Assembly (NCBI GenBank): GCA_025054955.1 | Contig: JANWZE010000127.1 | Coordinates: 1 to 64,000 of the forward strand | DNA: 64,000 nucleotides | Origin: Blastocatellia bacterium | Lineage (GTDB): Bacteria; Acidobacteriota; Blastocatellia; HR10; J050 | Direction of reading: 5' to 3' | Part shown: positions 45,854 to 54,112 of the stretch, piece after piece | How the letters are laid out: every line of letters starts with the position of its first letter | Numbering within the stretch: position 1 is the stretch's first letter | Notes under the pieces: model-generated | Told to the model about the DNA's origin: nothing | The model's database searches: none | The model's input: only the letters and a program-made list of their open reading frames with translations | Program-made: the position numbers and the translations under genes

Positions 45854-46780
45854 TTATTCTGACCGCCCAGATGGCTCCGACATCAGCAGTCCCAACGCAA
45901 TGGAGAAGAGTTTGGCCTCTGCTGTGTCAGACCGTGAGGGAATCAGGATCGGCGCGCGCGCGCCAACAACGACATGCGCAAGCCGAAACCCAGCGAAATA
46001 GGTCGTGCTCTTGGCCAATATATTGGCCGCTTCCATATCCGGCGCAACGAGGATGTCTGCATGACCCGCGACTGGCGACTCAATCTGTTTGACGCGGGCT
46101 GCATCGGCACAGACAGCCGCGTCCAGCGCCAGCGGGCCGTCTACCACACAGCCTGGTATTTGCCCGCGACGGTTCATCTGAGTGATGATGGCCGCGTCGA
46201 GCGTCGAAGGAATAGACGCCGAAACTTTTTCAGTGGCCGACAACAACGCGACTTTTGGCTCTGCGTAGCCGAGCGCGTGAGCCACCTGTACGGCGTTCAG
46301 GATGATCTGGACTTTTTGCTGGCGATCCGGATGAGGAACCACTCCGCCATCGGTGATCAGTATCAGCTTGGTCTCATTCGGTTGCCGGACTTCACACACG
46401 AACACGTCGCTCAACAAATGCCCGATGCGCAATCCATCGGCTGGGTCCAGCACTGCTTTCATCATGGTCGCTGTGTCCACAGCGCCTTTTAACAAGATCG
46501 AAGCGTCGCCCGCATGCACCAACTGAACAGCGCGACGGGCGGCCGTTTCGTCATCCGCGCAATCCAGCACCGATTCGGGGAAAACCTCTGCGGCGGCAAC
46601 ATCTGACCACGCCTGCTTGATCTCATTCGCGGGTCCAAGCAGTATAATCCGAACAAGGCCGAGTCGTTCAGCTTCGATAGCTGCCGTCAGCGCTGTGCGG
46701 TTCTGTGCGCCGATGACGGCAGTGGTTCGTCGCCCTACACGCTGCGCATAAGTCAGAAGTTCATCAAGGTTGTGAATCAT
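45854..46780 (-). CDS. ptb: Phosphate butyryltransferase (phosphotransacylase family)
   Basis: A 308-residue member of the phosphate acetyl/butyryltransferase family; with Buk it would convert butyryl-CoA (or a branched acyl-CoA) to acyl-phosphate and then acid with ATP formation. Motifs: LLKGAVDTATMMKAVLD, ITDGGVVPHPDRQQKVQIIL, KVALLSATEKVSASIPSTLDA and AGHADILVAPDMEAANILAK, all characteristic of Ptb. The start at 46780 has GAGG at five bases; an in-frame ATG 46795 overlaps the buk stop codon and is also possible. Confidence 0.92.
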   Translation of the reverse strand: MIHNLDELLTYAQRVGRRTTAVIGAQNRTALTAAIEAERLGLVRIILLGPANEIKQAWSDVAAAEVFPESVLDCADDETAARRAVQLVHAGDASILLKGAVDTATMMKAVLDPADGLRIGHLLSDVFVCEVRQPNETKLILITDGGVVPHPDRQQKVQIILNAVQVAHALGYAEPKVALLSATEKVSASIPSTLDAAIITQMNRRGQIPGCVVDGPLALDAAVCADAARVKQIESPVAGHADILVAPDMEAANILAKSTTYFAGFRLAHVVVGARAPILIPSRSDTAEAKLFSIALGLLMSEPSGRSE

Positions 46781-46787
46781 CGCTGCC

Positions 46788-47852
46788 TCACTCATACTCG
46801 CGAGCTGATTCCTCGCCCCGCAGCACGCGCAGGGCGCCCAGCGCCAATGCTTCCATTTCAAATTCGCCAGGCATGACCATCACCGGGGCAATGAACAAAA
46901 CCCGCGCGATAATCCAGCTCGTCAACATGCGAGAATGTGCAAGCCCGCCGGTCAGGATGATGGCATCCACTCGTCCGGCCAATACTGTCGCCATCGCGCC
47001 GATCTCTTTAGCGATCTGGTAAGCCATTGCTTGATATACTTCATGAGCCAATCTATCGCCCTGAGCAATGCGTTGCTCCACTTCAGTGGCGTCATTGGTG
47101 CCAAGGTAGGCCATCAGCCCGCCTTCCCCCATCACCATGCGTCGCACTTGCGATTCGGTGTACCGGCCAGAGAAACAGAGCGTGATGAAATCCTGAAGCG
47201 GAAGACCGCCGGTTCGTTCCGGAGAAAACGGGCCGCTGCTGGCGGCGTCATTGGCGTCAATGATGCGGCCGCCCCGAACCGGGCAAACAGAAATGCCGCC
47301 GCCCAAATGGGCAACGACCCAGTGCGAGTGCTCATAGGATTTTCCTAATAACTGAGCTGCGCGTCGCGCCACAGCATGGATATTCAGCGCATGAGAGAGG
47401 CTCCGGCGTGCAATGGCCGGATGCCCAGAGTAGCGCGCCAATGGCTCAAACTCGTCAACCGAGACGGGGTCCACCACGAATCTGGCTGTCTGCTCTGGTT
47501 CTCCTATGTCAGCGGCCAGCGCCGCGCCCAAGTTCGATACATGCTGACCTTGCACCCCACGCCGTGCATCCTCCAACATGCGCTCGGTGATGCGATACAC
47601 GCCGCCAGGCACCGGCTTGAGCAAACCGCCCCGCGCGACGACGACGTCAAAATCGGCTTCCGTATAACCCCAGCGACTGAGAGCTGTTCTGATCGCCTGC
47701 CGTCGAAATTCAAACTGGTCCCACACCGTAGGAAATTGCTTCAACACAGCCGCCTCATGCGCGAGCGACTCGCTGATGATCATCCGCTCGTCTTCAAAGA
47801 CAGCGACTTTGGTTGATGTCGCGCCTGGATTGATAACCAGAATCCGGTACAT
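46788..47852 (-). CDS. buk: Butyrate kinase
   Basis: A 354-residue acetokinase-family enzyme that transfers phosphate between butyryl-phosphate and ADP. It opens ILVINPGATSTKVAVFEDER, the nucleotide-binding start of the family, and contains ARGGLLKPVPGGVY, HLGGGISVCPVRGGRIID (catalytic region) and DAIILTGGLAHS. GGAGGAGC directly precedes the ATG. It forms an operon with ptb. Whether the natural substrate is butyrate or a branched short-chain acid from amino-acid degradation cannot be told. Confidence 0.94.
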   Translation of the reverse strand: MYRILVINPGATSTKVAVFEDERMIISESLAHEAAVLKQFPTVWDQFEFRRQAIRTALSRWGYTEADFDVVVARGGLLKPVPGGVYRITERMLEDARRGVQGQHVSNLGAALAADIGEPEQTARFVVDPVSVDEFEPLARYSGHPAIARRSLSHALNIHAVARRAAQLLGKSYEHSHWVVAHLGGGISVCPVRGGRIIDANDAASSGPFSPERTGGLPLQDFITLCFSGRYTESQVRRMVMGEGGLMAYLGTNDATEVEQRIAQGDRLAHEVYQAMAYQIAKEIGAMATVLAGRVDAIILTGGLAHSRMLTSWIIARVLFIAPVMVMPGEFEMEALALGALRVLRGEESAREYE

Positions 47853-51502: not shown

Positions 51503-52642
51503 ATGAAGTGCACCAGCGATGTCATCATCATTGGCGGCGGCATCATCGGCTGCTCGATTGCGTATCGTTTAGCTCAAGCCGGACTGCGCGTCATCGTGGT
51601 CGAACGCGGACAGCCTGGCTGTGAAGCCTCGACCGCAGCCGCCGGAATGCTGGCTCCGCAATCAGAAGCTGCTCATGGCGTGTTGGGCGCATTCTCTGAG
51701 TTATGTTACGCCAGTTGGCAGTTGTATCCTGACTTTGTTCAGCACCTGCAAGAGGACGCCTCGTTCACGGTTGATTACCGTCGTGATGGGAGTCTCTTTG
51801 TCGCTTTCGATTACGTAGAGGCAGAGGCGTTAGCCGGCCTGGTCGAGCGTCAACAAGCGGCGGGTCGTCCGGTTGAAGAATTGTCACCCGCGCAATTGCG
51901 AGAGCTGGAGCCGCTTCTCTCTGAGCACGCGCAGGTAGGCGTCTGGTTGCCTGACGATCATCATGTGGATACGCGCCTTTTGATGAATGCCTTGACGGTG
52001 GCGTGTTTGCGGCGTGGCGTTCAGTTCATCACCGAGACGCCGGTGATTGGTCTGGCATCTGAAGGTGCTCGCGTCATTGGCGTGCGTGTTCCCGGCAGCC
52101 TGCTCTCAAGCGCATTCGTCGTCAATGCCGCTGGCAGTTGGGCGGGATTGGTTGATCCTTCCATGATGCAATTTCCTATTCGGCCGATTCGCGGTCAGAT
52201 GGTCCAGCTCAACATCCAACCACAGCCGGTTCGGCATCTGCTCCATTCGACAGGCTGCTACATCGTGCCGTGGCCAGATGGACGATTGCTGATTGGCGCG
52301 ACTGTGGAAAATGTCGGATTCAACAAATCAGTGACGGCTCAAGGCGTTCATCAATTGCTCAGCGCGGCGTTGAAGATGTTGCCAGCTCTGCATGGGGCGA
52401 CCGTTCAAGGAACATGGGCTGGATTGCGACCTGATACGGAGGATAATCTCCCTATTCTCGGCCCTGCTCAATGGCAGAACGTGATCATGGCGACAGGCCA
52501 TTTTCGCAATGGTATCTTGCTCGCGCCAGTGACAGCGCAGTTGCTCACGGAGCTCATCACCACGGGGGAAGCGTCGCGTTCGTTAGCGCCTTACAGTCCG
52601 CAGCGATTTCTCAAGGAGTCAACGGAGAGCGCTTCAAGTTGA
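51503..52642 (+). CDS. thiO: Glycine oxidase ThiO (FAD-dependent DAO family)
   Basis: A 379-residue flavoprotein oxidase that makes iminoglycine (dehydroglycine) for thiazole synthesis in thiamine biosynthesis. The FAD site is DVIIIGGGIIGCSIAYRLAQ, then CEASTAAAGMLAPQSEA typical of ThiO, VVNAAGSWAGLV, YIVPWPDGRLLIGATVENVGF and TGHFRNGILLAPVTA at the end. No other thi genes are in the window. The stop region overlaps the end of the convergent BMC-P gene by nine bases. The start is taken as ATG 51503 because of the promoter; ATG 51488 is in frame. Confidence 0.92.
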   Translation: MKCTSDVIIIGGGIIGCSIAYRLAQAGLRVIVVERGQPGCEASTAAAGMLAPQSEAAHGVLGAFSELCYASWQLYPDFVQHLQEDASFTVDYRRDGSLFVAFDYVEAEALAGLVERQQAAGRPVEELSPAQLRELEPLLSEHAQVGVWLPDDHHVDTRLLMNALTVACLRRGVQFITETPVIGLASEGARVIGVRVPGSLLSSAFVVNAAGSWAGLVDPSMMQFPIRPIRGQMVQLNIQPQPVRHLLHSTGCYIVPWPDGRLLIGATVENVGFNKSVTAQGVHQLLSAALKMLPALHGATVQGTWAGLRPDTEDNLPILGPAQWQNVIMATGHFRNGILLAPVTAQLLTELITTGEASRSLAPYSPQRFLKESTESASS

Positions 52643-52906
52643 AGCGATTTGAACCGTATCCACGATGCCTACGATGGCCGCGTCAATGGGACGATCCTTA
52701 CAATCGGTGGCCATGCGAGCCGAGCTGCCCGACACCACGATGACCGTTTCGCGGTATCCCGCGCCAACGGTATCAACCGCCACCAGGTAGCCGGATTCGT
52801 CGTGCCCTTCAGGGCTGACTGGACGCACCAGCAGGAGTTTTTTCCCTTGTAGCCGTTCGTCCTTTCGCGTGGCCACCACTGTGCCGAGAATGCGTGCCAG
52901 GATCAT
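52634..52906 (-). CDS. Bacterial microcompartment vertex protein (BMC-P, EutN/CcmL)
   Basis: A 90-residue EutN/CcmL-family protein that forms pentamers at the vertices of microcompartment shells. The family pattern is clear: [72 protein letters not shown]. It is the last gene of a three-gene operon and overlaps the BMC-H gene by ATGA. Confidence 0.95.
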
Positions 52907-53199
52907 GATGATTTCTTGGTGCGGGCTTTGGGGCTGACGGGCAACGCCTCGTCCACCGCTTGATGCGGACGAGGGATGACGTGAACGCTGACCAGCTCTC
53001 CAACCCGTCGTGCCGCGGCCGCGCCGGCGTCGGTGGCCGCTTTCACCGCAGCCACTTCGCCACGCACAATGGCCGTGACGAAGCCGGCACCGATCTTTTC
53101 GTAGCCGATCAAGGTGACATTCGCCGCTTTCACCATGGCGTCGGCAGCTTCGATCATGGCTACCAGACCCTTGGTCTCGATCATTCCCAATGCATCCAT
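52903..53199 (-). CDS. Bacterial microcompartment hexameric shell protein (BMC-H)
   Basis: A 98-residue single BMC-domain (Pfam BMC) protein forming hexameric shell tiles. It begins [20 protein letters not shown], continues with [20 protein letters not shown] (the pore-lining loop is KIGAG) and [19 protein letters not shown], and ends in a short basic tail ([10 protein letters not shown]). GGAGG precedes ATG 53199. One BMC-H plus one BMC-P is the smallest plausible set for a closed shell; no trimeric BMC-T gene is seen here. Confidence 0.96.
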
Positions 53200-53267
53200 C
53201 GTGCTATCCTCCGATTCATGTTGCCGCGCATATCATAGAAAGCTCTCGGATCAGACGCAAGGAGCGT

Positions 53268-54074
53268 TCACCGTCCACGTTGCTCGGCGAGCGCGCGCAG
53301 CAAGAGCTCCACTGACTCAGCGATCAGGTCAATCAATTGCTGCCGGCTTAATGTGATCGCCTCATCAGACGCCGCCTGGCGATGAGCCGTCGTCATAGGC
53401 ATTTGCGCGCGGCACAGTTCCGGCGTCGGCGACGACATGCCGGCCTTCTGACGAATTTCAAACAGCTTGCTGACCGCCTCCGGCGTCAACGGCTTTTCTT
53501 CACCCACCAATCGCGCGACCAATGCAATGCGAGCAAAATGTTCCAACGTTTCCATCCGGTAATAGGCTTGCTCAACTGTAGCGCCGCAGGTCAGAGCGCC
53601 ATGATTGGCCAGCAACAACGCATCGTAATGAGCAATGTATGGTTTGATTGCGTCGGCCAGTTCAGGCGTTGTGGGTGTGCCATACTCAGCCAGCGGAATG
53701 CAGCCGAGCGTCAGCACCACTTCTGAGATCAACGGCGTCGTCAACGGGATGCCCGCTGCGGCAAAGCCTGTGCCAACGGGCGGGTGAGCATGGACGACCG
53801 CCTGCACATCAGGGCGTTGATGATAGATCGTCAGATGCATGACAAGCTCCGACGACGGCTCAAGATGTCCCTGCAGTTTCCGCCCCTGCTCGTCCACGAC
53901 AACGAGCATATCGGGCGTCAAAAAACCTTTGCAGACGCCGGTCGGTGTAGCCAGAATCCGTCCCTTGTCAGGAAGTCGGGCGCTAATGTTTCCGTCGCCA
54001 GCGGCAATATAGCCTCGCTGGTACAAGCGCTGACCCGCTTCGATGATTGCGTGACGAATCGCCTGTTGATCCAT
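53268..54074 (-). CDS. Class II aldolase (fuculose/rhamnulose-phosphate type) with C-terminal tail
   Basis: A 268-residue class II (zinc) aldolase: catalytic Glu in PSSELVMHLTIYH, zinc histidines in VVHAHPPVGTGFAA and ANHGALTCG. Related enzymes split L-fuculose-1-phosphate or rhamnulose-1-phosphate to DHAP and L-lactaldehyde. It is ~50 residues longer than FucA. After the core (~225) follows a linker and an amphipathic helix (SRQQLIDLIAESVELLLRAL) resembling microcompartment encapsulation peptides. The start is ATG 54074 (promoter nine bases upstream; a longer in-frame version reads through direct repeats). It leads the operon with the two shell genes. Confidence 0.92.
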   Translation of the reverse strand: MDQQAIRHAIIEAGQRLYQRGYIAAGDGNISARLPDKGRILATPTGVCKGFLTPDMLVVVDEQGRKLQGHLEPSSELVMHLTIYHQRPDVQAVVHAHPPVGTGFAAAGIPLTTPLISEVVLTLGCIPLAEYGTPTTPELADAIKPYIAHYDALLLANHGALTCGATVEQAYYRMETLEHFARIALVARLVGEEKPLTPEAVSKLFEIRQKAGMSSPTPELCRAQMPMTTAHRQAASDEAITLSRQQLIDLIAESVELLLRALAEQRGR

Positions 54075-54083
54075 GCGCGGTGC

Positions 54084-54112
54084 AAAATAGCTTGGCCAGC
54101 TTGATCCGTCAA
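54084..54112 (-). promoter_or_regulatory. Candidate promoter of the aldolase/BMC operon
   Basis: Minus strand TTGACG (54112-54107), 17-base spacer, TATTTT (54089-54084); nine bases remain before ATG 54074. The -35 box lies inside a direct repeat whose second copy (54178-54211) carries another TTGACG without a -10 partner. Confidence 0.55.

Follow-up and report, generated by a model that had tools for sequence, protein, structure and literature searches.

The aldolase and shell protein unit

The window analyzed here, i.e., the whole stretch of 64,000 nucleotides from contig JANWZE010000127.1 of Blastocatellia bacterium (assembly GCA_025054955.1), carries a unit of three genes on its minus strand: a class II aldolase of 268 aa (53268..54074; PF00596, 1.5e-50), which is the putative signature enzyme and cargo; a hexameric shell protein, BMC-H, of 98 aa (52903..53199; PF00936, 105 bits, 1.6e-30); and a pentameric shell protein, BMC-P, of 90 aa (52634..52906; PF03319, 106 bits, 1.2e-30). 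The two shell genes overlap by 4 nt. The unit is flanked on the aldolase side by the divergent ruvA (TIGR00084) and on the other side by the convergent thiO (TIGR02352), which the 3′ end of the BMC-P gene overlaps by 9 nt. Profile matches and coordinates confirm this arrangement, already described in the initial annotation. The aldolase starts at the ATG at 54074 and not with the longer TTG ORF. Its order with BMC-H and BMC-P is kept in relatives, whose aldolase-adjacent BMC-H is 81–92% identical to that of the window, and the closest named homologues belong to Acidobacteriota.

A sigma-70-like promoter, TTGACG-17-TATTTT (54084..54112, minus strand), matches the consensus at 9 of 12 positions and stops 9 nt short of the aldolase ATG. 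Given this sequence and its CTTGAC block, unchanged in eight genomes, the unit is most likely transcribed from a promoter of its own, as first proposed, with a very short leader. An Rfam search near the unit returned no RNA element. No further BMC partner adjoins the three genes, in agreement with the earlier statement that aldehyde dehydrogenase, PduL, and other shell genes are missing from the locus. About 5 kb downstream of the unit lies a phosphate butyryltransferase-like and butyrate kinase (Ptb-Buk) pair (window 45854-47852, minus strand), which might yield ATP from acyl-CoA in the cytosol; we rejected it as a conserved BMC partner because this adjacency is not kept in relatives.

Fold, active site, and C-terminal tail of the aldolase

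The AlphaFold2 (AF2) model of the aldolase has a pLDDT of 91, and its nearest solved folds are YgbL, DrdA, and FucA; in sequence score, DrdA (about 30% identity) beats E. coli FucA. Residues E76, H95, H97, and H158 do not vary among 19 class members and 33 wider homologues, and from their motif position we take them to be the counterparts of the catalytic Glu and metal-binding His of FucA.

Beyond this fold, the AF2 model predicts a disordered linker (residues 227-238, pLDDT <50) and then a C-terminal helix (residues 244-267, in blocks with a mean pLDDT of 88–96). This linker-plus-helix architecture is that described for encapsulation peptides (PMC8217296), and the tail motif is conserved among Acidobacteriota homologues. 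In a hydrophobic-moment test, the helix was marginally more amphipathic than shuffled versions (p about 0.09), which is weak on its own. Considering the model, the conserved motif, and the rate comparison given below, we regard the tail (residues 236-268; 53271..53369, minus strand) as a putative encapsulation peptide.

Partner genes elsewhere in the genome

We then have to consider the rest of the genome (4.69 Mb, 99.5% complete), whose BMC inventory is limited to two BMC-H and three BMC-P genes, located at three sites. Besides the window unit (BMC-H1 and BMC-P1), the genome-wide shell-domain search and the BMC-P tree identified a BMC-P2 and BMC-P3 pair on contig 130 (L006:9543-10120); the third site, on contig 148, holds BMC-H2 followed by a 568-aa aldehyde dehydrogenase (AldDh; L007:7879-9585). 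The latter scores 599 bits against TIGR02518, just below the curated cut-off of 620, and matches PDB 5j78 at 1.9e-146; by these matches, it is closest to acetylating acetaldehyde dehydrogenase and would be of the CoA-acylating type. A candidate encapsulation helix within the AldDh linker was rejected, as it is not amphipathic.

PduL (PF06130) is absent from the whole genome, and transacylases of the Pta and Ptb types are present. There are also five strong matches to 2-hydroxyacid dehydrogenase (PF02826), none of them beside a BMC gene. Comparison of upstream regions revealed no evident promoter shared by the second and third sites with the first. Two other class II aldolases, about 30% identical, have no shell gene on their contigs, and no complete BMC locus with its own aldolase exists elsewhere in the genome. 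The initial annotation had hesitated between a satellite locus and a stripped-down compartment: the further shell genes and the acylating AldDh it proposed to look for are indeed found, in line with the first option, and the second is not supported.

A split BMC-P triplet of the ACI type

ACI is a microcompartment type of Acidobacteria catalogued by Sutter et al. in 2021, featuring a pfam00596 aldolase with a C-terminal encapsulation peptide, a BMC-P triplet, a BMC-H, a satellite AldDh placed phylogenetically near MIC3, and a hydroxyacid dehydrogenase; its authors suggested a role in carbohydrate degradation (PMC8217296). We surveyed 80 named loci retrieved by an aldolase profile search, among which the common Acidobacteriota layout joins all five genes (aldolase-H-P1-P2-P3). 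The BMC-P tree places the window protein with the position-1 sequences (support 99/97) and the two contig-130 proteins with those of positions 2 (91/96) and 3 (97/96). Given these positions and the match to the ACI layout, the window unit is, on sequence grounds, part of an ACI-type microcompartment whose triplet is split and whose genes are distributed over three sites.

This splitting varies among relatives of the same class: the triplet is together in family f5, split 1+2 in most genomes of f1, f4, and f8, and fully scattered in f3 and f6. The P2-P3 pair has different neighbours in f1 and f4, suggesting that it moved more than once. The joined triplet of f5 is itself nested among split-triplet lineages (families f1-f9), pointing to repeated splitting or to rejoining of genes.

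Several other features of ACI loci were noticed. A 2-hydroxyacid dehydrogenase was detected in seven of the surveyed loci, at least one labelled Vicinamibacterales, and not detected in the surveyed loci labelled Pyrinomonadaceae. A Rex-like redox repressor gene lies directly upstream of the aldolase in 11 named loci (L108, L118, L119, L146, and seven others) and is also found upstream of it in L051:8549-9388. In several Pyrinomonadaceae-type loci, the triplet is followed by a small protein ending in KPCDHCAMC..RGF (L051:11506-12024, L063:9957-10418, L118, and others); the one tested had no Pfam match. Next to the AldDh of an f5 satellite (L061:7302-9864, with similar genes in L065) lie, among others, a DUF711 protein and an ACT-domain protein whose N-terminus carries an additional helix-like extension, both possible unrecognised BMC cargo. 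Finally, ACI-type aldolase-H-P loci in an Acidimicrobiia MAG (L160) and a Bacillota MAG (L097) are nested among Acidobacteriota in the trees, owing to either transfer or misbinning.

Natural loss of the shell in a sister genus

Genomes of the sister genus g4 form a series. The shell is intact in G004; in G005, BMC-H1 and BMC-P1 are broken (pseudogenes) and BMC-P2 has diverged; in G008 and G009, there is no shell-domain match anywhere in the assemblies (87% and 73% complete, respectively), and the sequence beside the aldolase, seen directly, holds no shell gene. Between a TPR gene and rnj, G004 has 2.5 kb with the BMC-H2-AldDh pair, whereas G005 has about 440 nt and G008 about 490 nt, an empty site without the pair seen in these two genomes. 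On whether G005 lost its shell in one event with G008 and G009 or separately, the protein tree and the synonymous distances give different answers. G007 was rejected as a case of AldDh loss: the rnj flank is also missing there, so that an assembly gap is probable. Outside g4, the aldolase orthologue, the shell, and AldDh are all absent from G020, G024, and G028, which belong to a genus with two-contig 3.7-Mb genomes.

The aldolase is intact in G005, G008, and G009, with a core dN/dS of about 0.04–0.13 in these shell-loss genomes (dN of about 0.03 at a dS of 0.2–0.8). Since it survives the loss of the shell, it is also of use outside of one. Relative to the core, dN of the terminal helix is 9–10 times higher in three shell-loss comparisons and 1.5–5 times higher in six shell-bearing pairs; one has to keep in mind that these rates rest on about 26–35 codons from three related genomes and that the difference lies partly at the last residues. 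An encapsulation tag with no shell left to serve would be expected to change faster in this way.

Substrate and alternative readings

The initial annotation leaned on the fucose/rhamnose microcompartments, and a metabolosome of this kind (PVM- or GRM5-like), splitting L-fuculose-1-phosphate or L-rhamnulose-1-phosphate into DHAP and lactaldehyde, would suit the FucA-like fold and active-site motif of the aldolase, the related aldolases found in BMC loci of Latescibacterota, Eiseniibacteriota, and Bacillota, and the carbohydrate degradation envisaged by the ACI authors (PMC8217296). Against it, the only two FGGY kinases of the genome are glycerol kinase (GlpK) and a xylulokinase (XylB)-like protein, and, despite 99.5% completeness, none of its kinases is scored as FucK or RhaB, so that fucose and rhamnose routes of the E. 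coli type lack their kinase; the AldDh is, moreover, closest to acetaldehyde-type enzymes. With neither PduL nor a recognised fuculokinase or rhamnulokinase, these substrates are not supported, and the closest known type is ACI rather than the Planctomycete PVM. We, thus, hold a fucose/rhamnose metabolosome to be unlikely.

A 5-deoxypentose is another candidate, since DrdA, which cleaves 5-deoxyribulose-1-phosphate into DHAP and acetaldehyde (PMC6079011), is among the nearest solved relatives (6btd/6btg) and the AldDh is acetaldehyde-like. A DHAP-shunt-like metabolosome would split 5-deoxyribulose-1-phosphate or a similar 1-phosphate and convert the acetaldehyde to acetyl-CoA within the shell; such pathways rely on MtnK-/MtnP-like and MtnA-like enzymes in place of an FGGY kinase, and this genome has no FGGY kinase for deoxyhexoses. 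However, no MtnA, MtnP, or MtnK genes were recognised beside the unit, the substrate cannot be read from an identity of this level to DrdA, and YgbL (OtnC-type) is equally near; the literature we searched gave no link between microcompartments and 5-deoxyribose. We consider this reading rather unlikely, and the same holds for its extended form, in which ACI compartments would capture, as acetyl-CoA, the acetaldehyde from 5-deoxypentoses (radical-SAM by-products) or similar compounds, and genus g4 would represent a natural organelle loss with a cytosolic enzyme still in use and an encapsulation tag in decay.

The events in g4, where loss is real, could also indicate that the window unit is a decaying remnant whose shell genes no longer function; this is highly improbable, as all genes are intact in the window genome, the promoter is conserved, and dN/dS is about 0.06 for BMC-H1 and about 0.07 for BMC-P1 relative to G004 and G007. 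As for a self-sufficient minimal compartment built from the window aldolase, BMC-H, and BMC-P alone, it is hardly tenable: only these genes are present locally, and one hexamer and one pentamer suffice in principle to close a shell, but the orthologous partners P2, P3, H2, and AldDh are retained in the genome, and relatives that lose shell genes lose AldDh with them.

A probable dispersed metabolosome

Our preferred reading, to which we assign a probability of roughly 0.78, is that the window unit supplies the signature enzyme of an ACI-type metabolosome whose genes lie at three or more chromosomal sites. The products of the aldolase, H1, and P1 genes of the first site would assemble with P2 and P3 from the second and with H2 and AldDh from the third, the hexamers H1 and H2 and the pentamers P1-P3 forming a closed shell into which the C-terminal helix would draw the aldolase. 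There, the enzyme would split a ketose-1-phosphate-like substrate into DHAP and a short aldehyde, which the co-encapsulated AldDh would turn, with NAD+ and CoA, into acyl-CoA; without PduL, the acyl-CoA would leave the shell or go to the cytosolic Pta or Ptb-Buk. As far as genome sequences can tell, the dispersed metabolosome is supported by gene content, orthology of the triplet, the linker-plus-helix tail, the conserved promoter, the joint loss of shell and AldDh, and an aldolase that persists where the shell is gone. Several points run counter to it: the three sites share no operon, and the second and third show no evident promoter in common with the first; the hydroxyacid dehydrogenase of the ACI description is near no BMC gene here; and the aldolase outlives the shell, with a helix that is weakly amphipathic by the moment test.

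The split, scattered triplet would be a new architectural variant of a known compartment that is itself functionally uncharacterised, and it indicates that ACI parts can be scattered over a genome yet stay under selection. Since the cargo enzyme outlasts its organelle in the loss series (shell intact in G004, decaying in G005, gone in G008 and G009), one can test whether a signature enzyme depends on a BMC shell and whether encapsulation is the sole reason for keeping the C-terminal helix. For the substrate, the search is narrowed by the lack of deoxyhexose kinases and by an AldDh of the acetaldehyde type.

Comparison with known systems

Among the catalogued types, ACI shares with our system the aldolase with a C-terminal linker and helix, the BMC-H, three BMC-P paralogues, an AldDh on a separate locus, and its occurrence in Acidobacteriota relatives; it differs in that its main locus holds the BMC-P triplet, whereas P1 is here with the aldolase and P2-P3 are elsewhere, and in that its locus has a 2-hydroxyacid dehydrogenase (PMC8217296). 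The PVM and PVM-like fucose-rhamnose types also have shell proteins, an acylating AldDh, and a class II aldolase in the role of signature enzyme, but PVM genes form one locus (PMC8217296), while ours are scattered, without PduL or a recognised fuculo- or rhamnulokinase. FRAG, from the same catalogue (PMC8217296), has shell genes at several genomic sites and a BMC-P triplet, as here; its genes are mostly remote from known enzymes, whereas the aldolase and AldDh adjoin shell genes in our genome. Outside microcompartments, DrdA of B. thuringiensis (6btd) has the same fold and metal-site motif as the window aldolase; with a shorter chain of 222 aa, it is without the C-terminal linker and helix, and its gene, unlike that of the window aldolase, sits with its kinase and isomerase genes (PMC6079011).
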